Assembly: GCA_030603445.1 (NCBI GenBank)
Contig: JAUVXU010000006.1
Location: forward strand, 31,077-95,076
DNA from: Methanomicrobia archaeon
Lineage (GTDB): Archaea > Methanobacteriota_B > Thermococci > Methanofastidiosales > NM3
Reading direction: 5' to 3'
Length of the DNA: 64,000 nt
The notes under the pieces are model-generated. The model saw nothing but the letters and a program-made list of their open reading frames with translations. It made no database searches and was not told the DNA's origin. Shown piece after piece: positions 4,212 through 32,440 of this stretch; position 1 is the stretch's first letter; each line of letters begins with the position of its first letter. The translations under genes and the position numbers were made by a program.

Positions 4212-4324
4212 TGGCGCCGAGGTAGGGATTTGAACCCTAGTTGTGCAAGGCACAATCAGATTTCCCGTCAGCTACTATTTGGATCTCGAGTCTGACGCGT
4301 TTGACCAAGCTCCGCAACCTCGGC
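4212..4324 (-). tRNA. tRNA-Ser(CGA) with a 23-base intron
   Basis: The acceptor stem is GCCGAGG/CCTCGGC with discriminator G73 and an encoded CCA (4212-4214). The anticodon stem is TCAGA/TCTGA with loop C-T-CGA-G-A; the anticodon CGA is at 4288-4286. A long variable arm (TTGTG/CACAA) and the T arm TAGGG/CCCTA make it a type II tRNA; G73 and CGA assign serine, not leucine. A 23-base intron at 4262-4284 sits after position 37, the usual archaeal place. The exon-intron junctions fold into a canonical bulge-helix-bulge: CTCG pairs with CGGG, the bulges are AGA and AAA, and each is cut between its second and third base. Splicing needs the tRNA endonuclease EndA. Confidence 0.9.
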
Positions 4325-4481: not shown

Positions 4482-5696
4482 ATGTTAATCATGTACGTCA
4501 CGCGCACGCAGCAGGTGGCCCTAAAGGGCAATCACTTCTCATGCTGGTGCCACAAGGCAAAGAACGTATACAACAATGCCAATTACATCGTTCGCCAGGA
4601 ATACTTCAACAATGGACGTTACATAGCGCACAATGAGCTCTACCACCTCGTCAAGAACGATACGGAGTACAGGGAGCTTCCCTCGCTTGTTGCAAACGAG
4701 ATTTTAAGGACGCTTCACGAGGCCTGGACGGGATTTTTCGGCTCCATGAGATCGTATGGCCGCGACCCCTATCGTTTCCTTGGCAGGCCAAGGCCGCCCC
4801 GCTACAAGGACAGGGACGGGGAGATAACGATAAGATTCCCACGCAATCACATCTCGCACCGCGGGGGAAAGGTCCTTTTGCCAAAGAAGGTAGGGCGATA
4901 CCCTATAAGGCACAAACTGCCGGATGGGGCAGACGTCAAGATGGTGCGAATAATTCCAAGGGGATCCTCGTATGTAGCGGAGATCGTCTATGGGAAGGAG
5001 GTAGATGTAAACAAAAGAATGGCCAGGTGCGTGCTTGGTGTGGACATCGGGCTTGAGAACCTCATGACCGTGGTGGATGATCAGGGCAACAGGCCCTGAA
5101 TCGTCAAGGATGGAGCTCTCAAGTCAATGAATCAATACTACAACAAGGAGCTTGCCCGCTTAAAATCCGTATGCGCAAAGTCTGGGCAGAGGACGACCAA
5201 GAGGATAAAGAGACTCTCTGAAAAAAGGAACAGGAAGGTAAGAAACGCCCTCCACCATATGAGCAAGCTGCTCGTCGGGCATGCCTGCAGGGTGGGGGCG
5301 TCTTCCATCGTCATCGGATATAACGAGGGATGGAAACAAAAGGTAAGGCTCGGCCGAAAGACGAATCAGGGTTTTGTCCAAATACCTTACCATACCCTCT
5401 TGAAGCAGATAGCCTACAAGTCCGAAGAGAACGACATCGAAGTTGTCCTTCAAGACGAGTCGTATACCAGCAGGTGCTCCTTCCTTGACAGCGAGCCGAT
5501 AGAAAGGCATGGCAGCTACAAGGGAAGGAGGATTTGCAGGGGCCTCTTCCAATCAGAAAAAGGAAAGGTAATCAATGCCGATGTGAACGCGGCATACAAT
5601 ATAATAAAAAAGGCATTCCCCAAAGCTTTCGCAGAGGGGATAGAGGATGTCAGCTTGCATCCGGTACGCATGGCAATGTGCCCTGTGTGCGAATGA
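4482..5696 (+). pseudogene. tnpB: tnpB (RNA-guided nuclease of IS200/IS605 family), interrupted by TGA
   Basis: Both halves are in one frame, broken only by the TGA at 5097-5099. The first half (205 residues) contains the N-terminal part and the RuvC-I Asp (LGVDIGLENLMT). The second half has the RuvC-II Glu (IGYNEGWKQ), the degenerate zinc-ribbon region (YTSRCSF...KGRRICRGLF) and the RuvC-III Asp (NADVNAAYNI). The stop replaces a residue in the conserved GNRPxIVK stretch right after RuvC-I, so neither fragment keeps all three catalytic acids. A single point mutation is the simplest cause and implies recent decay. Base composition is clearly richer in G+C than the flanking DNA (for example 4740-4880), consistent with horizontal arrival. 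Confidence 0.85.
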
Positions 5697-20021: not shown

Positions 20022-21599
20022 TTATATTCGTCTCTTCAATTTAAGATCTTGCAAATCAAGCCTTCCAGCTAGTCCCCATATGTTGGAGATCCCGCCCTTT
20101 TCTTCTTTCTTTCCAAATGCACTGCCACGTTTCATCTGGGCTGCAATTGCGGTTGCTATTGCTGCAAGTTTCTCATTACCGAAACCTTCTGCCTCTCTTC
20201 GTGCAAGCTCAGCAGCTTTCTCTTCTTCGACTTGCTGCTTCATCTTTTCGACGAACTTTGTGCGCGCCAAGTAACCTGTGTCAAAGTTACCACTTGCGAA
20301 GTCCGGATTTTGCATCATCCTTTGGTGTAGAGGTATTGTGGTCTTCACGCCTTTGATGACAAATTCGTTTAGGGCACGTTGCACCCTGTTGATACATTTT
20401 TGTCGGTCTTCGTCCCATACGATGAGTTTAGCGATCATGGAGTCGTAGAAAGGCGAGATCTGGAAACCGTCAAACGCTGCGGAGTCGACCCTTATACCTG
20501 CACCACCAGGGGTCTCGTATCTGCTGACCGTACCAGGTGTTGGCATAAAGTCGTTGAAAGGATCCTCAGCATTGATTCTGCACTCAATTGCGTGTCCCCT
20601 AAACTCTATGTCGTCCTGTGTCAGGTCAAGTTTCCTTCCCATCGCAATTTCTATCTGGCGTCTTACGATGTCGCGGTTTGTGTACATTTCAGATACACAG
20701 TGTTCCACTTGTATACGGGTGTTCATTTCCATGAAGTAGAACTGCCCATCCTTGAAGATGAACTCCACCGTACCAGCTGAAGTGTAATCTGCCGAGACTG
20801 CTGCACGTACACCTGCTTGTCTAATCTCCTCTTGAAGTTCTGGATCATTAAATAGTGCTGGCGATGGTGCTTCCTCGATTAGCTTTTGATTCCTTCGTTG
20901 GATAGAACAATCACGCTCACCAAAGTGTACTGCGTGTCCGTGTTCGTCACAGAGTACCTGCACCTCGATATGGCGTGGGTCTATGATATACTTCTCAAGG
21001 TACACTTCGGGGTGTGCAAATGCAACTGCACCCTCCCTTTGGGCGGCCTCGAACATGCTTATGAATTCATCTTCCTTCCATGCAACACGCATACCCTTTC
21101 CGCCACCACCATAGGCAGCTTTTATAATCACAGGAAAACCCATGTCCTTGGCTACTTCTAGTGCTTCTTGTGGGTCATCTATAACTCCTTTTGATCCTGG
21201 TACTGTAGGCACATTACGTTTCATTACCGTTACCTTAGCAACATCCTTTACACCCATCTTCGAGATGGAGGCACTTGTTGGGCCTATGAACTTAATGCCT
21301 TCACTCTCACATGCTCTGGCAAAGTCAATGCTTTCTGCAAGGAATCCATATCCTGGGTGTATTGCATCAACATCAGCATCTTTTGCTGTGTCTATTATTT
21401 TAGGTATGTTTAGGTAAGATTCTGTGGGCATTGGGGAACCTATACAATATGATTCATCTGCCATTTTAACGGCTAAAGTTGCCTTGTCTGCATCAGAGTA
21501 AACTGCGACAGTGCCAATACCTAGCTCTTGGCATGCCCGGAATACCCTTATGGCTATTTCGCCTCTGTTGGCGCACATAACTTTTTCAAATTCTCCCAT
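20022..21599 (-). CDS. Biotin carboxylase subunit of acyl-CoA carboxylase
   Basis: 525 residues, longer than E. coli AccC (449). The N-terminal MCANRGEIAIRVFRACQELG, the ATP-grasp glycine loop [11 protein letters not shown], the catalytic stretch [20 protein letters not shown] and [14 protein letters not shown] are intact. The last ~70 residues form a charged extension (EKMKQQVEEEKAAELARREAEG...) also found in archaeal PccA-type subunits. It carboxylates biotin with ATP and bicarbonate. It is third in the operon carboxyltransferase (22020)-biotin carrier (21626)-biotin carboxylase, typical of archaeal acetyl/propionyl-CoA carboxylases. Confidence 0.92.
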   Translation of the reverse strand: MGEFEKVMCANRGEIAIRVFRACQELGIGTVAVYSDADKATLAVKMADESYCIGSPMPTESYLNIPKIIDTAKDADVDAIHPGYGFLAESIDFARACESEGIKFIGPTSASISKMGVKDVAKVTVMKRNVPTVPGSKGVIDDPQEALEVAKDMGFPVIIKAAYGGGGKGMRVAWKEDEFISMFEAAQREGAVAFAHPEVYLEKYIIDPRHIEVQVLCDEHGHAVHFGERDCSIQRRNQKLIEEAPSPALFNDPELQEEIRQAGVRAAVSADYTSAGTVEFIFKDGQFYFMEMNTRIQVEHCVSEMYTNRDIVRRQIEIAMGRKLDLTQDDIEFRGHAIECRINAEDPFNDFMPTPGTVSRYETPGGAGIRVDSAAFDGFQISPFYDSMIAKLIVWDEDRQKCINRVQRALNEFVIKGVKTTIPLHQRMMQNPDFASGNFDTGYLARTKFVEKMKQQVEEEKAAELARREAEGFGNEKLAAIATAIAAQMKRGSAFGKKEEKGGISNIWGLAGRLDLQDLKLKRRI

Positions 21600-21625
21600 T
21601 ATATCACCTTGGATATTGTGTGCGC

Positions 21626-22006
21626 TTACTCTAAGACGATGAGGACATCATCCATATCTACTGCATCGTTTACGCTAGCATTGATTTCCTTGACCTTTCC
21701 GTCTGATGTTGCCTCAATCTCGTTTTCCATCTTCATGGCGACAATTGTGCATACAACATCTCCTGTTTTTACTTCGCTTCCGATTTCACAGTTGATTTTT
21801 GTAACTACGCCTTGTATTGGTGAAATGATGTTTTTTCCTCCGTCGCCGAATCCTTTTTTGCCCTTCTTTTCTGTTTTCTTTACTTCTTCTTCGGCAAAAA
21901 TCTCATACTCTTTTCCTGCTATATCGATCTTGTAAGTGTTTCCACCAATATCTTCGGCATTTACATCAAATGATTCATCACCAATTTTAACTAGAAATTT
22001 TCTCAT
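21626..22006 (-). CDS. Biotin carboxyl carrier protein of acyl-CoA carboxylase
   Basis: 126 residues starting MRKFLVKIGDESFDVNAED, a typical PccA/MmdC-type N-terminal strand region. A flexible lysine/glycine linker (~60-70) leads to the biotinyl domain, ISPIQGVVTKI...VCTIVAMKMENEIEA, with the biotinylated Lys in AMKM. A longer frame exists up to 22075 but overlaps the upstream gene; the ATG at 22006 follows a Shine-Dalgarno AAGGAGTG. It shuttles carboxybiotin between the two neighbours' products. A biotin ligase (BirA) is not in the window. Confidence 0.9.
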   Translation of the reverse strand: MRKFLVKIGDESFDVNAEDIGGNTYKIDIAGKEYEIFAEEEVKKTEKKGKKGFGDGGKNIISPIQGVVTKINCEIGSEVKTGDVVCTIVAMKMENEIEATSDGKVKEINASVNDAVDMDDVLIVLE

Positions 22007-22019
22007 ATTTTCACACTCC

Positions 22020-23594
22020 TTATAGTGGGATGTTACCATGCTTCTTTGAGGGTCGTGCTTCACGCTTTGTTGCAAGGCTTTCTAATGCAACAATTATTTT
22101 TGCCCTCATATCAGAAGCGGCTATCACTTCATCAACATAACCCCTTTGTGCTGCAACATATGGTGTGGCAAACTTCTCGCGGTACTCTTCACCTTTTACC
22201 TTTCTTTTTGCAAGGTATTCTGCACTGAGGTACTCTACACCACCTTCCATGAGTTCTCTTCGGTGTATTATGTTTGCAGCCCCTTCAGGCCCCATGACAG
22301 CTATCTCAGTTGTTGGTAGTGCGAATATTATGTCTGCACCAAGGTGCTTTGAGCACATGCCTATATACGCCCCGCCATATGCCTTCCTAACGAATACAGT
22401 AACTTTTGGAACTGTAGCTTCGGAGTACGCATACAGGAGTTTTGCACCGTGCCTTATCACTCCAGCATGCTCTTGTATCGTACCAGGCAGGTAACCAGGC
22501 ACATCCACTAATGTGACTAGAGGGATATTAAATGCATCACAGAATCTGATAAATCCTGCTGATTTGTCTGATGAGTCTATATCAAGGCATCCAGCTAGAA
22601 CCCTGGGTTGGTTTGCAACAATACCTGTTGTTTTACCATTCATCCTAGCAAATCCAACTACTATATTCTTTGCAAATGCACCATGGACCTCAAGGAAATC
22701 TCCATTATCTGCAATATGCTCGATAACTTTTACCATGTCATATGGCTTTTGAGGGTCTACTGGTATCAGATCGTTCATAGATGCATCTACTCTTGTCGGG
22801 TCATCTCCCGTGTCAACATAAGGCGCTTCTTCTAAATTGTTTGAAGGCAGATACCCAATAAGCTCCCTGATAGTGGCAAGACATTCTTCCTCATCGTCAC
22901 AGACGAAGTGCGCCAGTCCAGATTTTTTGCCATGGACCGTTGCACCACCAAGATCCTCAAAAGATACATCTTCTGAAAGCACTTCCTTTACTACCTCTGG
23001 CCCTGTGATGAACATAAATGAGATGCCTTTTACCATAAAGACGAAGTCCCCTATTGCAGGAGAATATACTGCACCACCTGCACATGGCCCAAGTATGGCT
23101 GTTATTTGTGGGACAACACCTGAGTAAATTGTATTCCTGTAGAAGATATCACCGTAGCCTTTCAGAGAGTCCACACCTTCCTGAATCCTGGCACCGCCCG
23201 AATCATTAAGGCCTATTAATGGTGCACCCATTTTTCCTGCGAGGTCCAGTAATCTTGATATCTTGCTTGCATGCACTTCCCCAAGTGAACCACCCATGAC
23301 AGTGAAGTCCTGTGCGAACACATAGACCAACTTACCATCGATAGTTCCGTAACCTGTGACTATACCGTCACTTGGAACGTCCATCTTCTCCATACCAAAA
23401 TCTGTCACGCGGTGTTTCCTGAAAAGACCTATCTCTTGGAAACTTCCGGAATCAAGTAGCATATCAAGTCTTTCTCGTCCTGTTAGCTTTCCTTTTTCAT
23501 GCTGTGTTTCTATACGCTTGTCTCCTCCTCCTTTTTGAAGGAGAGATCTGCGTTCTTGCAGTTCCTTAATTTTCTCTTCAATTGACAATTGCAT
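22020..23594 (-). CDS. Acyl-CoA carboxylase carboxyltransferase (PccB/MmdA type)
   Basis: 524 residues containing both crotonase-fold halves: KLTGRERLDMLLDSGSFQEIG, FAQDFTVMGGSLGEVHASKI, NDSGGARIQEG, GPCAGGAVYSPA in the N-terminal half and PLVTLVDVPGYLPG, RKAYGGAYIGMCSK, EIAVMGPEGAANI in the C-terminal half. It moves CO2 between carboxybiotin and an acyl-CoA. Methylmalonyl-CoA decarboxylase α-subunits look alike, but those systems have a membrane β-subunit, absent here, whereas a biotin carboxylase is present. Acetyl-CoA or propionyl-CoA is therefore the likely substrate. First gene of its three-gene operon. Confidence 0.92.
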   Translation of the reverse strand: MQLSIEEKIKELQERRSLLQKGGGDKRIETQHEKGKLTGRERLDMLLDSGSFQEIGLFRKHRVTDFGMEKMDVPSDGIVTGYGTIDGKLVYVFAQDFTVMGGSLGEVHASKISRLLDLAGKMGAPLIGLNDSGGARIQEGVDSLKGYGDIFYRNTIYSGVVPQITAILGPCAGGAVYSPAIGDFVFMVKGISFMFITGPEVVKEVLSEDVSFEDLGGATVHGKKSGLAHFVCDDEEECLATIRELIGYLPSNNLEEAPYVDTGDDPTRVDASMNDLIPVDPQKPYDMVKVIEHIADNGDFLEVHGAFAKNIVVGFARMNGKTTGIVANQPRVLAGCLDIDSSDKSAGFIRFCDAFNIPLVTLVDVPGYLPGTIQEHAGVIRHGAKLLYAYSEATVPKVTVFVRKAYGGAYIGMCSKHLGADIIFALPTTEIAVMGPEGAANIIHRRELMEGGVEYLSAEYLAKRKVKGEEYREKFATPYVAAQRGYVDEVIAASDMRAKIIVALESLATKREARPSKKHGNIPL

Positions 23595-23955: not shown

Positions 23956-24813
23956 CTAAAGTTCTTTTTCTATATAATACATAAAAAGCGTGGCGCTAAG
24001 TAGGTCTGCAGAACCCCCTGGGCTTATATTGTGTTTTATAAAAGATTTCTCAAGTTTTGTTATTTTTTCTCTTCCCTCTTGAGATAGGGTTCCTCCAAGG
24101 AGAAGTATTTCTCTTGCTTCAGCTTGTACTTGTTTAAATAGTTCTATTCCTCCACGAGAAATGATGTTGGTGTCTTCGACTACTGCCATAAGTGACAGAA
24201 GAGTTTGTAACAAGGCATCGTTGAGATCTCCGCTCTTTTCATAAGCTTCTTTAAGTGTAGGAAGGCCTTGCTCCATTACAGAGGGGAGGCCACGTTCCAC
24301 TTCTCCTCTTATGCCTGTGATGTCATGCTCTAGGAACAGTTGTTCCCCTTTTGTTAGATTGTTTGTTTCTTTTTCTTTTACAAGATTGCCAAGCTCTTTT
24401 TCAACAATATCTTCAGTTATATTTGCAACACCATTAGCTACTATTTTTGGGATGAGCTCTCCTTGACGTAAAAAGTGTGCGGATGAACTTAGAATAAGAT
24501 AAAATAAGAATATGAGGCCTTTTTGTGTGTTCACTCCATTTGTAACCTCAAACATTCTTTTTTCTACTTCTAGTCCTCTTGTTCGAATACAAGGGAGCAT
24601 ATCTTTTAGTGTTCCTTCATAATCGTAACTAAAATGGGCTATATCATAAAAGCCCTGGCTTAGCACTGATGAGCTCTTCAGAAATAGGGTATAATCCATA
24701 TCTTGGTGCGTTCCGCATGAGAATGGCGTCACAAGCCCTGGTTTTGGATGACAAGATGCTTCTAATAGGATGCTTCTTGTGGCAAGTTCTCCAAGCATGT
24801 CTATATCTTTCAT
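23956..24813 (-). CDS. mdcB: Triphosphoribosyl-dephospho-CoA synthase (MdcB/CitG family)
   Basis: 285 residues. The motif EASCHPKPGLVTPFSCGTHQDMDYTLFLKSS (~17-47; pattern E-x4-PKPG...H-x-DM-x7-S) is the CitG/MdcB signature, and SPGGSADLLSATLFMYYIE closes the protein. It makes 2'-(5''-triphosphoribosyl)-3'-dephospho-CoA from ATP and dephospho-CoA, the precursor of the prosthetic group of malonate decarboxylase or citrate lyase carrier proteins. No citrate lyase gene is present; MdcG overlaps its start by 4 bases. Its presence shows the carrier at 28496 is used as a thiol-bearing ACP. Confidence 0.9.
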   Translation of the reverse strand: MKDIDMLGELATRSILLEASCHPKPGLVTPFSCGTHQDMDYTLFLKSSSVLSQGFYDIAHFSYDYEGTLKDMLPCIRTRGLEVEKRMFEVTNGVNTQKGLIFLFYLILSSSAHFLRQGELIPKIVANGVANITEDIVEKELGNLVKEKETNNLTKGEQLFLEHDITGIRGEVERGLPSVMEQGLPTLKEAYEKSGDLNDALLQTLLSLMAVVEDTNIISRGGIELFKQVQAEAREILLLGGTLSQEGREKITKLEKSFIKHNISPGGSADLLSATLFMYYIEKEL

Positions 24814-25457
24814 AAGCCTTCCTCAACTGCGGCTCTGTTTAAAAGAACTACATCACGAAGCCCTTTTGCGACAAGGGTATTTGAGTCGCTAATATATTCT
24901 TTAATATTTATACAGTATCCAGAAGCAAGTGATACTTCCACATCAATACGTATATTTTCTTGTATTTCAAGTTTTGATACGTTTTTCCATAGAAGGGATA
25001 AGTCGTTTGCTTCACAGTTACGTACTAGTAGGTCTAGGTCAGACCCCTTATCGGTATATGGGAGGCCTGTAGCTATTTCAAGGGCGCATGACCCCCATAC
25101 TCCTATGTTATCGTTGTCCTTAGATAGTGTATGAAGTATTTTAAGCGGTTTGGTTCTTTTCAAGTAAGTTTTTTCCAGGAGATCGAACGGCGTTATTTTT
25201 CTCTTTATTTTTTTACCATAAACAGAGGAACCATGTCTTAGCCTGTTTCCATCTATTTTTGCAGGATAGACAAATCCCACATATACCATCTCATCTTCGC
25301 GGTAGTGGTTTTCTCCGGTAGATTCTTCTAGTTCGTTTCTTCTTACAATTCCAGGTATAGTTTCAGAACGTATCAAAGATTTGAAATCTTCTTTTTGGGG
25401 CAGGGTGGATAATTCATCACACTTTGCGAACACCAGGTCATGGCGCCTGAACTTCAT
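24810..25457 (-). CDS. mdcG: MdcG: phosphoribosyl-dephospho-CoA transferase for the carrier protein
   Basis: 215 residues of the MdcG type. Start MKFRRHDLVFAKCDEL, then VGFVYPAKIDGNRLRHGSSV, and a nucleotidyltransferase-like core WGSCALEIATGLPYTDKGSDLDLLVR with the metal-binding DLD. It loads the prosthetic group on the serine of the MdcC carrier. It overlaps mdcB by 4 bases and follows the ligase-like gene by 7. The MdcG/MdcB pair is diagnostic of malonate-decarboxylase-type systems, as citrate lyase uses CitX instead. Confidence 0.88.
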   Translation of the reverse strand: MKFRRHDLVFAKCDELSTLPQKEDFKSLIRSETIPGIVRRNELEESTGENHYREDEMVYVGFVYPAKIDGNRLRHGSSVYGKKIKRKITPFDLLEKTYLKRTKPLKILHTLSKDNDNIGVWGSCALEIATGLPYTDKGSDLDLLVRNCEANDLSLLWKNVSKLEIQENIRIDVEVSLASGYCINIKEYISDSNTLVAKGLRDVVLLNRAAVEEGL

Positions 25458-25464
25458 TTTGTTC

Positions 25465-26580
25465 TTACCTTCCTTTTGTCCAACATGGGTCTTTGATATT
25501 TAAAGTCTGGTAATCTAGTTGGGCCTCTACCAAAAGGTCGAATAGCTTTGTCTTTTCTGGCCCTTCTATAAGTATGGGTTCTTCATTGTTATACCCTTTT
25601 TGGATAAGTGCGGGTTTTAGCTCAAGTACAGTCTTGTCTGCATCAAGAATAACATCATCTGGTACCTTAGCCACCTTTGATTTTATCCTAAGAATACTTC
25701 TGCATGCACGTTCGATGGTTTCTTTGGCATTGACAGTTGTTTCTCTCACGTAAATCTCATAATCGGGTTGTGTTCTTCGTCTCATGTACGTGATTACTTT
25801 TCCTTCCTTATCAAGCACATGGCCAGAAGATACTATAGGGAAACTATCGCCTGTAGGAAGCCCGCCAACCACAGTCTCATTGTAATCTTTTCCTGCATTG
25901 GATGCAACAAAAGATATGTCCTCTCTTGCAGGTTTTCCATTTGCCGTTATCCATCCAAACTCCTGGGTTCCATAGATGTCATTTACTTTCGCACCCAGCA
26001 CATCACGTATTATCCCAACTGCGTCTAGGTCAAGAGGCGTCCCAATGCAGTTCACTATATCAACGTTTGGCAGATCTTTATCCACCCCGAGTTTTATCGC
26101 GTCTTGAAGGGCGCATTTAAGGAATGTGGACTCTCCAAATATTATGTTGGGTTCTTTATAATAAACGTCTACTAGAAAGGAGTCCCGGGATGATTTTGTG
26201 AGAAATTCCCAGCTGATGCCAAGTTCCTCCAAGGCGTCTTTGGTTATTGCATTAAGAAGGGGAGGATAACAAAACAGTGTTTTATCTCCCTCTTTTGCAC
26301 CTGCCATTTTTAAGGTGTTCATACCTACGTTTTTTCTATATTCTTTCTCGTTTGGTGTTATACCAACAAGATTTTGCCATGCTGTTGTTCCAGTTGTAAA
26401 TGTGATATAAGCGTAATTTAGGGGAGTGTGCACTTCTTCAATGATGTGTGCAGCTGTTGGACCATTTATCCCTTTGTCTGCAAGTGTCCTATGTTTCATT
26501 TCATTAAATGCAGGTACTGAAGAGTAGAGCTCTATACTCTCTTTTAAATCTTCAAAATAAGGATTTTCTTTTTTTGCCAT
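25465..26580 (-). CDS. AMP-forming ligase-like protein, candidate ACP-SH:acetate ligase
   Basis: 371 residues related to phenylacetate-CoA ligase and coenzyme F390 synthetase-type ANL enzymes. Residues 58-67 (YITFTTGTTA) match the adenylate-binding A3 loop, and 201-210 (DIYGTQEFGW) the A5 motif. The protein is shorter than PaaK (~430), and the C-terminal domain is reduced and lacks an obvious catalytic lysine motif. By position it matches Malonomonas MadH, which acetylates the free thiol of the carrier to prime the cycle. I infer that role here: acetate + ATP + HS-ACP to acetyl-S-ACP. Whether MadH is homologous I cannot check. A separate acyl-CoA-forming role is the alternative. Confidence 0.55.
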   Translation of the reverse strand: MAKKENPYFEDLKESIELYSSVPAFNEMKHRTLADKGINGPTAAHIIEEVHTPLNYAYITFTTGTTAWQNLVGITPNEKEYRKNVGMNTLKMAGAKEGDKTLFCYPPLLNAITKDALEELGISWEFLTKSSRDSFLVDVYYKEPNIIFGESTFLKCALQDAIKLGVDKDLPNVDIVNCIGTPLDLDAVGIIRDVLGAKVNDIYGTQEFGWITANGKPAREDISFVASNAGKDYNETVVGGLPTGDSFPIVSSGHVLDKEGKVITYMRRRTQPDYEIYVRETTVNAKETIERACRSILRIKSKVAKVPDDVILDADKTVLELKPALIQKGYNNEEPILIEGPEKTKLFDLLVEAQLDYQTLNIKDPCWTKGR

Positions 26581-26637
26581 TAAAATACCCCACTATAAAA
26601 TTAAATAAAAAAAATAAAGAAAGAAGGAAGAAATATC

Positions 26638-27519
26638 CTACTCTAACAAGCTTGGAAGCATTTCGTTGAATTCTTTTTGCATCTTATTTATGGCTTCCAT
26701 TCTCTTAGTCCTACCACCACGCTCTGCACCAAGAACGCCTCTGTGCCATATACCAAGCTGGTCTTCTTTTCCCTGCATACGCAACTCGCGCACTTCAGAA
26801 ATGTTTCGTAGAAGCGCTTTTCTGATATCCTCTGGTTTTTCCACCATTTCATTGATGGTGCCAAGCTTGTAGACGAACTCAGCGCCAGATGCGAATACTG
26901 GATTAGTTTTCACAAGCTCGTTTAGCCTTTCTAAAGGAATCTTTGTGATTACAGAGATGCTTGTTGTAGGCATAACGTGAACTATTGTTCCGTACTCTTT
27001 TGGAAGAGAGAGTATCCTATCAGAAAGGAGCCCATGGCATAGGAACGCGCCACTTACGGCCCTTCCTATAATCATGCCTATGACGGGATGTCCGGCAGAT
27101 CTTGCATCCTCTATAGCAAATTGATATGATGCTGTTGCCTTGGTCATACCTACTATCTCTTCGACCTTTCCAGGACTGTTACCCGGGGCGTCGATTAAGA
27201 GGATAATGGGCCTTTTCTCTTCTTTGGGTTTTTTTTCGTCCTCATCAATAGTAGCATACACTCCTTGTGAGAACTTGTATGCCTCTTCCATGCCTACGAT
27301 ACCGTTGTATACGATGCGAAAGTGTGGACTAGGGCGTTTGGAGTTGTTACCCATTACTGTGCATATCTTGCCATCTAGCATAGCTTCACCAATAAATACG
27401 GGTGGAGCAAGGTCTGGATCAAGTGTTCTGTTGCTTATCTTGTTCTCCACGAAAGTTCCTTTATCAAATATGATATCGACTGCTTCGTCAGCCTTACCTA
27501 AATACATCTTTACGGCCAT
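26638..27519 (-). CDS. mdcE: MdcE: malonate decarboxylase γ-type carboxyltransferase subunit
   Basis: 293 residues, a crotonase-fold half carboxyltransferase. LIDAPGNSPGKVEEIVGM (~130-147) and SAGHPVIGMIIGRAVSGAFLCHGL (~165-188) match the γ-subunit, with the oxyanion glycine pair in the loops. It starts one base after the MdcD stop. Together MdcD and MdcE form the heterodimer that removes the carboxyl from malonyl-S-ACP, or adds it to acetyl-S-ACP when run with carboxybiotin. In biotin-independent decarboxylases CO2 is released directly; the biotin carrier in this operon argues for transfer to biotin (as Malonomonas MadC/MadD). Confidence 0.88.
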   Translation of the reverse strand: MAVKMYLGKADEAVDIIFDKGTFVENKISNRTLDPDLAPPVFIGEAMLDGKICTVMGNNSKRPSPHFRIVYNGIVGMEEAYKFSQGVYATIDEDEKKPKEEKRPIILLIDAPGNSPGKVEEIVGMTKATASYQFAIEDARSAGHPVIGMIIGRAVSGAFLCHGLLSDRILSLPKEYGTIVHVMPTTSISVITKIPLERLNELVKTNPVFASGAEFVYKLGTINEMVEKPEDIRKALLRNISEVRELRMQGKEDQLGIWHRGVLGAERGGRTKRMEAINKMQKEFNEMLPSLLE

Positions 27520-27520
27520 T

Positions 27521-28486
27521 TCAAAGCCCCCTTGGTCTTCTCTTAACTACTTTGAGAAACTCTTCTTGAGGTAGCTCAGGTAGTTCGTCAACATTTTCAT
27601 TGCCGTAGTACTTCCATAGGTCTTTGGAGTCGTTGATTTTTTCCCTACCAGCTATTTTCACTACGTTTAGATTCTCTTCAACAAGCTCTTCTGAACCTAG
27701 GTGCCTGTATTTGGATATTTCTGACATAGGTAGATCGGACATTGCGACTATCTTATCCCTAAATTCCTTTATGGAATCTTTTAGCAGGAAGTTCACATCA
27801 CCAAGAATGTATTTACTTCTCGCACCCATAGTTCTCCATATAAGCGCCCTGTCAGATGCATCGAACTCATCTTTTCCAACTTCTTGTTGAATAACATCCG
27901 GACCTGTAAGACCTATCCTGCCATAGTCATTTGCAAGGACCACATCAGCACTTAGACAAACGAATCCTTGTGCACCATACGCTCCAAGGCTGCTGCCGAT
28001 GATAGATATGTTTGGTACCTTGTTCTGAAGTTTCCACATGCATTCCATGCACTCGGAGTGAGCGACTAGCCCAGCATTTGCTTCATGCAAACGAACACCA
28101 CCGGAATCATAAGATACCACGACTATTGGTTTTCTGTCATCTGGCACTTTGCCATATTTCTCTTTCATAGCATCGTAGCAGTCAATAGCGAGCTTTAGGG
28201 TGTAAGACATCTTTGCCCCATTGACCTCACCAAGCGCGCCTCCTACGAATTTTCCTTCTTGAGAGATAACAAATACTGGGTGTTTTCCAATTTTCCCGAC
28301 GCCAGCAGTCATGCCATCATCGTATTCTACAGCTTCCCCGAGAATAATCAAATGGGGGCTAACCATCTTGTCTCGTGGGCCGAGGAACTCTTTGAAAGTG
28401 CCGTCATCAACTATTCCATTAGCCCTCTCTCGCGCAGTAGCTTGGTAGAAGCTTTTTTCCTGAAGTTCATTCCAGTTAATTCTCAT
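27521..28486 (-). CDS. mdcD: MdcD: malonate decarboxylase β-type carboxyltransferase subunit
   Basis: 321 residues. Early motif SFYQATARERANGIVDDGTFKEFLGPR, then VISQEGKFVGGALGEVNGAKM, and the β-subunit hallmark VVSYDSGGVRLHEANAGLVAH, followed by GSSLGAYGAQGFVC. These are the AccD-like features of MdcD/MadC. It binds the acyl-S-carrier. It is directly upstream of mdcE and 9 bases after the carrier gene mdcC, the order seen in bacterial mdc clusters (mdcC-mdcD-mdcE). The sequence keeps no zinc ribbon, unlike AccD. Confidence 0.88.
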   Translation of the reverse strand: MRINWNELQEKSFYQATARERANGIVDDGTFKEFLGPRDKMVSPHLIILGEAVEYDDGMTAGVGKIGKHPVFVISQEGKFVGGALGEVNGAKMSYTLKLAIDCYDAMKEKYGKVPDDRKPIVVVSYDSGGVRLHEANAGLVAHSECMECMWKLQNKVPNISIIGSSLGAYGAQGFVCLSADVVLANDYGRIGLTGPDVIQQEVGKDEFDASDRALIWRTMGARSKYILGDVNFLLKDSIKEFRDKIVAMSDLPMSEISKYRHLGSEELVEENLNVVKIAGREKINDSKDLWKYYGNENVDELPELPQEEFLKVVKRRPRGL

Positions 28487-28495
28487 GGTATCACC

Positions 28496-28819
28496 TTACT
28501 GTAGTCCCCCGCCATTTTCAATGGCTTGCAGTATCCTTCTCTTTACAACAGCAGGTGTTGCAGCGTTGTCGTTTATGCTAACATTTACGCCTGAGAGCCC
28601 AGTTGTTTCTACGATACGTTGAAGGACGGTTTCCCAAATATTATCAAATCCTACAACTGTTGTTAGGACATGAAAACATGCTTTTCCTTTGCATGCTTTT
28701 CCTTTTTCTATGAGAACTTCCAGGTCACTAGAGGACACTACACCAACATGACTCCAATCATCAACTATAGATTTAGGATTACCAGGCTTAAATTCAAAAT
28801 TAAGCTCTGTTAGAGCCAT
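28496..28819 (-). CDS. mdcC: MdcC: acyl carrier protein of malonate decarboxylase type
   Basis: 107 residues starting MALTELNFEFKPG. HVGVVSSSDLEVLIEKG corresponds to the family motif around the modified serine (S-x-D-L-E-V), which places the phosphoribosyl-dephospho-CoA on Ser30. The C-terminal NDNAATPAVVKRRILQAIEN matches the family end. This is not a phosphopantetheine ACP of fatty-acid type. A Shine-Dalgarno (GGTGGAGGAG) precedes ATG 28819; a GTG five codons upstream would overlap the biotin carboxylase gene. Substrates acetyl and malonyl ride on its thiol. An insertion KACKGKACFH with two Cys (about 43-50) is unusual. Confidence 0.87.
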   Translation of the reverse strand: MALTELNFEFKPGNPKSIVDDWSHVGVVSSSDLEVLIEKGKACKGKACFHVLTTVVGFDNIWETVLQRIVETTGLSGVNVSINDNAATPAVVKRRILQAIENGGGLQ

Positions 28820-28820
28820 A

Positions 28821-30182
28821 TTATTCTCCTCCACCTTTCGTATTTAACAGATGTTTTTCTATAAAGTCTGTGTGGAAGACCCCACTTTTGAACACTTCAT
28901 TGTTCATTACCTTCAAATGGAAGGGGATCGTGGTGCTGACGCCTTCGATCACGAACTCATTAAGTGCACGTTTCATGCGGGAAATTGCCTCGTCTCTGTC
29001 TTCTCCCCATACTATTAGTTTAGCGATGAGTGAGTCGTAGAACGGCGGAATTTCATATCCTTCATACATTGCAGTGTCAATACGGACGAATGGTCCACCA
29101 GGAAGTATGAGCTTTTCAATCGTTCCAGGGGATGGGATGTATGTTTCTGGGTCTTCGGCGTTTACTCTGCACTCAATTGCATGACCATTGATTTTGATAT
29201 CTTCTTGCTTGTGTTTGAGTTTCTCTCCTGCTGCGACGCGTATTCCATCTTTGACAATGTCAATGCTGGTGATCATCTCAGAAACACAGTGCTCTACTTG
29301 GACACGGGTATTCATTTCCATAAAGTAGAATTCATCTGACTTGTCATCAAATAGAAACTCTACGGTGCCTGCACCCTCGTATTTTGCTGCAAGTGCAGCA
29401 CGCACAGCTGCTTCACCCATCTTCTTTCGTACTTCTGGGGATATTGCTGGCGAAGGTCCTTCTTCAACAAGCTTTTGATGTCTTCTTTGGATAGAACAGT
29501 CTCGTTCTCCGAGGTAAATTGCATTCCCGTACTGATCCGCCATTATTTGGATTTCCACATGGCGGGATACTTCAATGAATTTTTCAATGTAAACATCGGG
29601 GTTTCCAAATGCTGCTTGTGCTTCTGTTTGGCATGATCTCAGTGCTGATTCAAGTTCGTTTTCCGACTTCACAAGTCGCATTCCCTTTCCTCCACCTCCG
29701 GCTGTTGCCTTACAGAGGACCGGGAATCCTATCTTATCTGTCAGAGCCTTTGCTTCTTTGTAGTTGTTGATTATTCCATCTGACCCTGGTGTAACTGGAA
29801 CGCCACCACTTATCATAGCTTTCTTTGCAGAAGCTTTGTCTCCCATACTGTTGATCGATTCAGCTGAAGGGCCTATGAATTTAATGTCGTTTGCTTTACA
29901 AAGTTTTGAGAATCTTGCGTTCTCTGCCAAGAATCCATATCCTGGATGTACTCCCTCACTGCCTGTCACAATAGCTGCATTAATGATATTCATCATATTA
30001 AGATAGCTTTTTGTAGCAGGCGCTGGGCCAATATTTACTTTCTCATCGGCTAATCTAACATGTAGGGCGTCCTCATCTGCGTCAGAGTAGACAGCGACAG
30101 TCTCTATGCCTAGCTCTTTGCATGCCCTGATTATTCTTACGGCTATTTCGCCTCTGTTCGCTATAAGGATTTTTTTAAACAT
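28821..30182 (-). CDS. Biotin carboxylase, AccC-like, inside the malonate operon
   Basis: 453 residues, the length of bacterial AccC. Starts [36 protein letters not shown]. The glycine loop [47 protein letters not shown] and the C-terminal [16 protein letters not shown] are intact, so it should be active. It is related to but distinct from the 525-residue copy at 20022, lacking its charged tail. Known Mdc and Mad operons do not contain this enzyme; its place between MdcA and MdcC, with a 1-base gap to mdcC, makes it an integral part of this system. Confidence 0.93.
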
Positions 30183-30194
30183 GGAATTTCCTCC

Positions 30195-31937
30195 TTACCA
30201 ATTTCTAAATCTAGTTGGTGCTTGATATAATCCGTCGGACCATTTCACAAGATCAGCCATGCTTTTTGCTGCTAGCTTTGATCTCTTTGCTTCGTTAAAT
30301 GATAAATTAAGGTCTTCTGGGAGCGCCACTACACCTTCTTTTCTAAGCTTCTGGGTCTTGCTATCATCAGCTGTAAGTCCTAGAGGAGTATAACCTGATA
30401 CGGCTTTTATTGCATCCATTCTCTCTTTTAGTGTCTTGCACTTGTGGACGTATGCAATACCTTCCTCTGTTACAATATGTGTGATGTTATCGGCGTATAT
30501 CATTATTGGCGGTATTGGGAAGTTTGCTTGTTTTTGTAGATCAAATGCATCTAGCTTCTCAACAAATACCGGGGCCATGCCCTCACCGAATGTCTCTACC
30601 ATCTGAATCACAAGTTTCCTTCCTCTATCAATTGGGCCTATCAGGTCCTTTCTCATCCCATCTTCTCTGGAAGCTTTGAGCCATCCTTCTGACGGGTGTT
30701 TTCTTCCTGGGGCATTACATGCCATGTTTGGTGCTCCACCGAATCCAGGTATCCTGCCAGCAGTAGCTGCTGCACTGTTTCCATATTGGTCTATTTGCAA
30801 CGTGGAACCAAAGAATGCATCAATAGCATAATGTCCTGCAAGTTGCCCCATTACTCTGTTTGAGCGCATCGTCCCATCAGGGCCAATCGGAAATATGTCT
30901 GGTTTTGACATTATGTAGTTCTCCATCCCGACCTCACTACCGAAAGGCATCATGGTCTCTACCCATCCAGATTCTATTGCTGGAATCATTGTGGGATGAG
31001 GATTGAGTGCCCAGTGGGTGCATATCTTGCCTTTGAATCCCATCTCTTCACCAAAAGTTGGCAAAAGTAGCTCTATTGCAGCAGTATTGAATCCAATACC
31101 ATGGTTTAAGGTGTTTATTTTGTATTTACTATAAATACCTACAAGTGAAAGCATTCCAATAAAGATTTGTGATTCTGTTATTAGAGCTGGATCTCTTGTG
31201 AAAAGCGGTTCTATATAATAAGGATCCTCTGTTGGGATCACGAAATCCACCCAATCTCCTGGCACGTCTACGCGAGGGACTTTATCAACTATTTCGTTTA
31301 CTTGTACTATGACAATGCCTTTTCTGAATTTTGCTGCTTCAATAAGTGCTGGAGTTTCCTCAGTATTGAATCCAGTGTACAAATTTCCGTATTTATCGGC
31401 TGCAGCAGCTGCCACAAGACATATTTTTGGCTGAAGGTCAAGGTACATTCTGGAAAATAACTCTACATAAGTGTGTATGGCTCCTATCTTGATTTTCCCT
31501 TCCATGACCATATCTGCTAGGTCAGTGGCTACGGGACCAGAATAACAGAAATCTACCTCAGATGCTATTCCTTTTTTGAACACTTCGAGGTGTTCTGGCA
31601 AAGCAAGACATGATTGGACCATATGTAAATTATTGATCTTTGCAGGATCAACTTTTGTTAAACACATAGCCAGAAAATCAGCTTGCTTTTGATTATCTCC
31701 TTCAATAGTTACATTGTCCCCAGATCGAATTACAGTTTCTAAAAGTGATATGCAATCTTCGGGCTGGACAACTTTTGATCCCGTTTTGGTGAACTTCTTT
31801 GCTTCGTTCATTCTTTTTTCGGTATCTATGCCGTTTTTGTCCCAACCTTTCATTGCTTTCTCTATCTTTTCGTCTATCGTGCGCTTAGACTTTCTGGGTG
31901 AATAAAAAATATTCTTTACGAAGTTTACATCTTCCAT
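30195..31937 (-). CDS. mdcA: MdcA: malonate:acetyl-S-ACP transferase (α-subunit)
   Basis: About 580 residues, slightly longer than bacterial MdcA/MadA (~550). The C-terminal half has QIDQYGNSAAATAGRIPGFGGAPNMACNAPGRKHPSEGW (pattern GNS..TAGR.PGFGGAPN), the clearest MdcA signature, and MIYADNITHIVTEEGIAYVHKC as in CoA-transferase family I relatives. It swaps malonate for the acetyl group on the carrier, releasing acetate, or the reverse. I take ATG 31937; a GTG three codons earlier is also in frame. Only 12 bases separate it from the biotin carboxylase gene. Confidence 0.9.
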   Translation of the reverse strand: MEDVNFVKNIFYSPRKSKRTIDEKIEKAMKGWDKNGIDTEKRMNEAKKFTKTGSKVVQPEDCISLLETVIRSGDNVTIEGDNQKQADFLAMCLTKVDPAKINNLHMVQSCLALPEHLEVFKKGIASEVDFCYSGPVATDLADMVMEGKIKIGAIHTYVELFSRMYLDLQPKICLVAAAAADKYGNLYTGFNTEETPALIEAAKFRKGIVIVQVNEIVDKVPRVDVPGDWVDFVIPTEDPYYIEPLFTRDPALITESQIFIGMLSLVGIYSKYKINTLNHGIGFNTAAIELLLPTFGEEMGFKGKICTHWALNPHPTMIPAIESGWVETMMPFGSEVGMENYIMSKPDIFPIGPDGTMRSNRVMGQLAGHYAIDAFFGSTLQIDQYGNSAAATAGRIPGFGGAPNMACNAPGRKHPSEGWLKASREDGMRKDLIGPIDRGRKLVIQMVETFGEGMAPVFVEKLDAFDLQKQANFPIPPIMIYADNITHIVTEEGIAYVHKCKTLKERMDAIKAVSGYTPLGLTADDSKTQKLRKEGVVALPEDLNLSFNEAKRSKLAAKSMADLVKWSDGLYQAPTRFRNW

Positions 31938-31966
31938 TAAAATCACGTTCCTGATGACACCCAGCT

Positions 31967-32440
31967 TTAGAGAGGCTCGATTTCAAACAGTACGTCTCCA
32001 ATCTTGACAAGTGACTCGTTTTCTACTTTAATTTTCACTATCTTGCCTTTCTTAGGGGAAGTGACTTCATTAAACATCTTCATAGCCTCAACAAGCCCAA
32101 TGACTTGCCCAGCTTCAATTATATCGCCCTCTTTTGGCAACGGTTCTTTGTCAATTGTTGTCCCAGGATATACATAGGCAACACCAGGTGTAGGAGCTGT
32201 AAGTTCAATCAAATTGGATGCAATTGGAGCTGCAGGCGTTTCCGCAGGTGCCGCAACATCCTCGGCGACTTCTTCTTCTACTACTGGAAATGATATTTGA
32301 GGTGCAGCTGCAATAGGTGCAACGCCTCCTGCCGGAGCGACGGTCCTAATTTCAACAGCGTCTTTCCTTACCACTAATTCTGCAATCTTGTTCTTTTTAC
32401 ATGCTTCTAGAATAGTTATCAGAGACTCTAAGTCCAACAT
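31967..32440 (-). CDS. Biotin carboxyl carrier protein, AccB-like
   Basis: 157 residues with the bacterial AccB build: an N-terminal region MLDLESLITILEACKKNKIAELVVRKDAVEIRT, an Ala/Pro/Glu-rich flexible linker (~35-85), and a C-terminal biotinyl domain with the thumb-like insert PGTTIDKEPLPKEGD and the target VEAMKMFNEV. It differs from the PccA/MmdC-type carrier at 21626. First gene of the nine-gene operon, with GGAGGGA five bases before the ATG. It would shuttle CO2 between the biotin carboxylase (28821) and the MdcD/MdcE carboxyltransferase. Confidence 0.92.
   Translation of the reverse strand: MLDLESLITILEACKKNKIAELVVRKDAVEIRTVAPAGGVAPIAAAPQISFPVVEEEVAEDVAAPAETPAAPIASNLIELTAPTPGVAYVYPGTTIDKEPLPKEGDIIEAGQVIGLVEAMKMFNEVTSPKKGKIVKIKVENESLVKIGDVLFEIEPL

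Follow-up and report, generated by a model that had tools for sequence, protein, structure and literature searches.

The 64,000-nucleotide stretch of DNA analysed here (the window) belongs to a Methanofastidiosia methanogen with a genome of 1.62 Mb (96% complete). Its minus strand carries, at positions 23956–32440, a nine-gene operon that we read, with moderate confidence, as encoding an ATP-coupled, biotin-dependent acetyl-S-acyl carrier protein (ACP) carboxylase/malonyl-S-ACP decarboxylase built on a Mad core. In this operon a gene for the biotin carboxylase AccC stands where the gene for the MadB pump would be expected. Of the named lineages that have the operon, Candidatus Methanofastidiosum is nearest, together with further Methanofastidiosia metagenome-assembled genomes (MAGs).

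Gene content of the operon

A first-pass annotation, made from the letters alone, had listed nine close-packed minus-strand genes in this interval. All nine open reading frames (ORFs) were found there, intact, in the 5ʹ–3ʹ order biotin carboxyl carrier protein (BCCP), MadA, AccC, ACP, MadC, MadD, MadH-like ligase, MadG, and MdcB, with successive gaps of 20, 12, −14, 9, 1, 57, 7, and −4 bp (range −14 to +57). As the AccC gene starts 12 bp past MadA and overlaps the ACP gene, it lies inside the operon core and not at its edge. Eight of the nine ORFs were assigned by curated Pfam or NCBIfam models, and the ligase had no match in either collection. A promoter scan gave sigma-70 matches at chance level only, as expected in an archaeal host.

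The carrier protein (31967–32440) is AccB-like with an N-terminal AccB-type segment, a PF00364 match (2.9e-17), and the biotinylation motif EAMKM. Against TIGR00531 it scored 70 bits over residues 2–155, under the cut-off of 115, and it was 37% identical to MadF over 51 amino acids (aa). A match to biotin-protein ligase was also present. The AccC protein (28821–30182) scored 727 bits against TIGR00514, above the cut-off, and contains all three domains of a biotin carboxylase (PF02786, PF00289, and PF02785). In an alignment with AccC of E. coli (1bnc) and S. aureus (2vpq), it retained the active-site motifs around E. coli K116, K159, H209, K238, E276, E288, R292, E296, and R338.

The remaining genes encode the enzymes and carrier of a malonate system. 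MadA/MdcA, the acetyl-S-ACP:malonate ACP transferase (30195–31946), scored 858 bits against TIGR01110, above the cut-off, and was 57–60% identical to bacterial MadA. The residues that contact malonate have been defined in Pseudomonas MdcA (PMC5534430), and when mapped by hand on an alignment with 5vit_A, Arg341, Asn292, Gln345, Phe312, Asn59, Tyr134, Gly381, and Asn258 of this site were all retained. The ACP (MadE/MdcC, 28496–28834) scored 92.9 bits against TIGR03130, and its Ser35 aligned with Ser25 of 5vit_C, the serine that bears the prosthetic group. The carboxyltransferase consists of the beta-like subunit MadC (27521–28486; TIGR03133, above cut-off) and the gamma-like subunit MadD (26638–27519; TIGR03134, just above cut-off; motif DAPGNSPGKVEE). 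By these scores the carboxyltransferase is of the MadC/MadD kind, and the accA and accD models fell far under their cut-offs on it. Downstream lie MadG/MdcG, a holo-ACP synthase (phosphoribosyl-dephospho-CoA transferase) at 24810–25457 with a PF10620 match (4.4e-19) and a TIGR03135 score of 91.5 bits, under the cut-off of 99.7, and MdcB/CitG, a triphosphoribosyl-dephospho-CoA synthase at 23956–24813 (PF01874, 1.2e-75; TIGR03125, 281 bits, above cut-off).

The ligase (25465–26580) was identified by its identity to bacterial MadH, which amounted to 46% for the protein of Rhodobacter capsulatus (annotated as AMP-binding, in a Mad operon) and 48% for that of Malonomonas rubra. Its AlphaFold2 model, built on 30 aligned sequences, had a pLDDT of 82 and a pTM of 0.83, and the best Foldseek matches were PaaK-type adenylate-forming ligases (E 5.9e-11) with a TM-score of only about 0.43. 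The identity and this moderate structural similarity point to a PaaK-like, AMP-forming ligase, putatively a deacetyl-ACP:acetate ligase that would acetylate the ACP.

Judged by sequence, the core is of the Mad, biotin-dependent kind, because it includes the MadH homologue, because MadC shared 50% identity with its counterpart in the Mad operon of R. capsulatus vs 34–38% with MdcD, and MadD 47% with R. capsulatus MadD, and because of the MadD motif. At the site of Gln100 and Tyr102 of MdcE (PMC5534430), most archaeal proteins read DTPGNSPGK and the window's MadD reads DAPGNSPGK; bacterial MadD mostly reads DTPGNGPGK, and the sole aligned Mdc-type sequence reads DSICQAYGR, so that the Gln and Tyr of MdcE are replaced by Asn and Pro. 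Membership of the biotin-independent Mdc systems was ruled out by the biotin carrier, MadH, and this motif. The gene functions given in the first-pass annotation held, whereas its Mdc label did not; the genes are better named Mad, and the gene that it called ligase-like is the MadH homologue.

Distribution of the operon and of the pump

The archaeal order was sampled with 21 genomes in four families (f1–f4), f1 being the family of the window's genome. The operon's MadA occurred in all five f1 genomes and all ten f3 genomes and was not found in the four genomes of f2 or the two of f4. In each of the 13 genomes with a contig long enough to show it, AccC directly followed MadA; two further MadA-bearing contigs end ahead of the AccC position. 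Eleven genomes from two families, the window's among them, shared one order of all nine genes, and the genes on two more, truncated contigs were colinear with them. Identity to the window's proteins among these relatives was of similar height for AccC (80–84%), MadA (78–83%), and MadC (76–82%). Misassembly or a chance arrangement was ruled out by the identical order in 13 genomes, the relatives coming from separate assemblies.

The OAD-beta/MadB family (PF03977) had no match in the operon, elsewhere in the window's genome (96% complete), or in the four other f1 genomes, which agrees with the earlier proposal that AccC takes the place of MadB with no such pump encoded elsewhere; the idea of a hidden pump in f1 was set aside on these five genomes. 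All ten f3 genomes had a PF03977 match, in some cases within about 6 kb of the Mad operon. One could therefore suppose an ordinary Mad system with its pump encoded at a distance and AccC as a chance neighbour, but we regard this as very improbable. It is largely refuted for f1 by the lack of any match, AccC comes after MadA and before the ACP gene in every genome where this part of the operon can be read, and the f3 gene belongs to a group with MmdA-like and carrier genes, as in a methylmalonyl-CoA decarboxylase. In the f3 locus L045, for example, OAD-beta lies on the opposite strand about 6 kb past MdcB beside such genes, and we assign it to that decarboxylase cluster. In f3 the pump may be shared with the Mad carrier; in f1 none was found. 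Neither within the archaeal operons, which lack MadL and MadM, nor next to them was a malonate carrier gene recognised, and f1 had no match to the AEC carriers. A search of the order for MadM (PF03818) gave no match, but its positive control was equally silent.

A total of 84,980 species genomes were scanned once with a MadH alignment, so that the survey is tied to MadH as its seed; 80 loci were kept and 30 weaker relatives left out. Of the 80, 69 were bacterial and eleven archaeal, the latter all belonging to Methanofastidiosia or its near relatives. AccC was present in ten of the archaeal loci, the eleventh being cut. MadB or another OAD-beta gene lay nearby in 58 of the 69 bacterial loci and AccC in none of these 58, bearing out the earlier statement that biotin carboxylase is foreign to pump-type Mad systems. 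When only the 55 bacterial loci uncut by a contig end were considered, 53 had MadB/OAD-beta, and 49 of these 53 also had MadL or MadM genes. The two exceptions were L103 and L111. Besides the archaeal loci, L111 was the only one in which a Mad core was paired with AccC in place of the pump.

L111 comes from a Defluviitaleaceae MAG, and its Mad core is joined at the 3ʹ end by a GntP-family permease, followed by a biotin carrier (85 aa) and AccC. Its genome gave no OAD-beta match. The AccC of L111 was the only one detected there at the threshold used and may therefore have other duties, and none of the other 37 genomes of the family had a MadH match. The other exception, L103 (5106–11691, Oscillospiraceae), had a Mad core with none of pump, carrier, and AccC in its surroundings, and its genome likewise gave no OAD-beta match; an extra ORF of 205 aa lies between its MadA and ACP. 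Among the remaining loci, OAD-gamma, biotin carrier, and OAD-beta genes replace MadB and MadF in L102 (3379–5393, Hungatella), and L064 (312–8495), L068, and L081 are Mad operons with an OAD-beta-like pump that is 31–32% identical to MadB. In L064 the carrier lies ahead of MadA, which amounts to the archaeal layout minus AccC.

In a tree of MadA, MadC, and MadD, the archaeal operons were monophyletic (ultrafast bootstrap support, UFB, 100) and lay next to the Mad cores of bacteria (98); L064 and L068 fell outside. The L111 core grouped with L103 and L102, and a constraint joining it to the archaea was rejected (approximately unbiased test, AU, p 1.9e-51). Since L111 and the archaea are thus not sisters in their cores, the pairing of Mad with AccC occurs on two separate core branches. 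In the AccC tree, the archaeal proteins formed one clade (UFB 92) and the deeper branching was not resolved; constraints uniting archaeal and L111 AccC (AU p 0.19) or archaeal AccC and the neighbouring PccA (AU p 0.59) were not rejected. Separate origins thus appear firm only for the Mad core, not for AccC.

Proposed reaction cycle and its direction

From the observed gene content, conservation, and residues and the absence of a pump in f1, we infer the following reactions, including the partnership of AccC with MadC–MadD. MdcB and MadG would make a holo-ACP bearing a CoA-like prosthetic group, which MadH would prime by acetylation with acetate and ATP. AccC would carboxylate the biotin of BCCP using ATP and bicarbonate, and MadC–MadD would move the carboxyl group onto acetyl-S-ACP to give malonyl-S-ACP. 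In the last step MadA would put acetate in place of the malonyl group, so that malonate is set free and the ACP is acetylated again. The net reaction would be acetate + HCO3− + ATP = malonate + ADP + Pi, with every step reversible in principle. The chemistry of the operon is probably the ATP-coupled conversion of acetyl-S-ACP into malonyl-S-ACP by carboxylation, because AccC is conserved inside the core and the catalytic motifs of AccC, BCCP, MadA, and ACP are retained, because the MadD motif is of the biotin type (Mad/AccA) in a family without OAD-beta and with a biotin-protein ligase match, and because L111, on a core that is not sister, shows the same swap.

On the direction we lean to ATP-consuming carboxylation. 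Assuming a standard free energy of −17.4 kJ/mol for malonate conversion to acetate and HCO3−, the computed free-energy drop of ATP-driven carboxylation was 12 to 53 kJ/mol for the cases with acetate of at least 0.1 mM, and ADP phosphorylation required a malonate/(acetate × HCO3−) ratio of about 10^4.7 to 10^7.2. On that assumed value, the calculation agrees with the earlier view that the ATP-using direction is the easier one. To our knowledge, biotin carboxylases otherwise work in carboxylations. We judge the case for net flux from acetate to malonate to be evenly balanced; flux from malonate to acetate with ATP gain is distinctly less probable, and some other use is unlikely.

Several points weigh against the proposed reaction in the malonate-forming direction. 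KAS I/II (beta-ketoacyl-ACP synthases) was not found in the window's genome, in keeping with the earlier remark that type II fatty-acid synthesis is lacking, and relatives gave weak partial matches only; among the enzyme families searched, no sink for malonyl groups or malonate was found. The characterised homologues of MadA, MadC, MadD, and MadH all degrade malonate, as far as we know. The GntP-family permease in the AccC-type operon of L111 would suit malonate uptake. In addition, AccC or BCCP might also serve the acyl-CoA carboxylase (Pcc) encoded next door. A digester study (PMC6052691) repeats what Nobu et al. 2016 had proposed for the class, namely that its carbon sources are acetate, malonate, and propionate.

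Most of these points would suit malonate catabolism with ATP gain, in which imported malonate is decarboxylated via malonyl-S-ACP and carboxybiotin, AccC running in reverse phosphorylates ADP, and acetate becomes cell carbon. We consider this possible, though rather doubtful: a substrate ratio of roughly 10^5 to 10^7 would be hard to reach in anoxic settings rich in acetate and bicarbonate, and neither the archaeal operons and their surroundings nor, for AEC carriers, the f1 genomes offered a recognised malonate carrier. If true, a methanogen would conserve energy through a reversed biotin carboxylase, with malonate decarboxylation coupled to ATP formation and not to Na+ pumping.

Another explanation is that AccC, BCCP, and MadC–MadD act as an acetyl-CoA carboxylase on CoA esters, the ACP part being secondary. 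AccC and BCCP are indeed of the acetyl-CoA carboxylase type, and Pseudomonas MdcD–MdcE takes malonyl-CoA in vitro (PMC5534430). Nevertheless, ACP, MadA, MadH, MadG, and MdcB are retained in order in every complete operon, the window's genome yielded no KAS I/II, and f1 has a CoA-type carboxylase next door, making this explanation improbable.

Neighbouring genes and known systems

The neighbouring acyl-CoA carboxylase operon (20022–23594, minus strand) begins 361 bp downstream of MdcB and comprises PccB (22020–23594), a biotin carrier (21626–22075), and the biotin carboxylase PccA (20022–21599), with matches to PF01039, PF00364, and PF02786. It is a system separate from the Mad operon, and PccB also adjoins MdcB in L027, L029, and L030. 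Methylmalonyl-CoA mutase had no match in f1, so that the product of the Pcc carboxylase has no evident sink. The window's PccB reads GGAYIG at a site where Ile favours acetyl-CoA in Streptomyces. In f3, a methylmalonyl-CoA decarboxylase Na+-pump cluster with a class III CoA transferase lies near the Mad operon (L045, 16430–21116; L046), and f1 has its ATP-dependent carboxylase at that place, a pump/carboxylase exchange for a second carboxyltransferase between sister families.

This neighbourhood raises the question of whether the Mad operon handles related acids, such as propionate/methylmalonate, instead of acetate/malonate, since genes of a propionyl-type carboxylase adjoin it in f1, and in some f3 genomes those of a methylmalonyl-CoA decarboxylase are close by. 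All malonate-contacting residues of MadA and its pocket phenylalanine are retained, however, and f1 has no mutase match; we find this substrate pair quite improbable.

Farther away, two neighbouring ORFs at 4482–5696 resembled, by eye, a split TnpB/IS605 OrfB-type transposon protein. A 110-bp Rfam tRNA match at 4215–4324 (minus strand) had no ARAGORN call, and its length suggests an intron.

Malonate use had already been proposed for this class in the work cited above. We found no published description, in the open-licence literature, of a Mad operon with AccC replacing MadB. The closest known system is the Mad operon of the Malonomonas rubra type, which shares homologues of MadA, ACP, MadC, MadD, MadH, MadG, and MdcB, the order ACP-C-D-H-G, a biotin carrier, the MadD motif PGNxPGKxEE, and probably a CoA-like prosthetic group on the ACP. 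The archaeal operon differs in lacking the MadB pump and the MadLM carrier and in having AccC between MadA and ACP; its carrier is AccB-like and comes first, whereas MadF is small and follows MadG. The operons of L064, L068, and L081 (Bacillota MAGs) run OAD-beta, (carrier), MadA, ACP, C, D, H, G, and MdcB, resembling the archaeal ones in having the carrier gene before MadA (as seen in L064) and MdcB as the last gene, but they have the pump and no AccC, and their core diverges outside both the archaeal cores and the remaining bacterial Mad cores. L111 is alike in joining a Mad core to a biotin carrier and AccC in a genome without an OAD-beta match, and unlike in its permease, its short carrier, the position of AccC, and the lack of an MdcB seen in the locus.

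The Mdc systems of the Pseudomonas type share MdcA, ACP, homologues of MdcD/E, MdcG, and MdcB; in contrast, they have neither biotin carrier nor MadH, and MdcE reads QAYG where the archaeal protein reads NSPG. Bacterial AccABCD shares the AccB-like carrier, an AccC with intact active-site motifs, and ATP-driven carboxylation of biotin, whereas the archaeal operon has no AccA or AccD and would use MadC–MadD with a dedicated ACP. The carboxyltransferases for oxaloacetate/pyruvate and for methylmalonyl-CoA/propionyl-CoA each exist with both a Na+ pump and an ATP-dependent biotin carboxylase as partner, and for the malonate/ACP carboxyltransferase we know only of the pump form. The operons described here, found in one bacterium and in a class of archaea for which dependence on organic acids for carbon has been proposed, look like the missing ATP-coupled form. 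They pose the question of whether ATP is spent in making malonate from acetate, and for what, or is gained from malonate, and they would demonstrate that such enzymes can exchange the part that couples them to energy.

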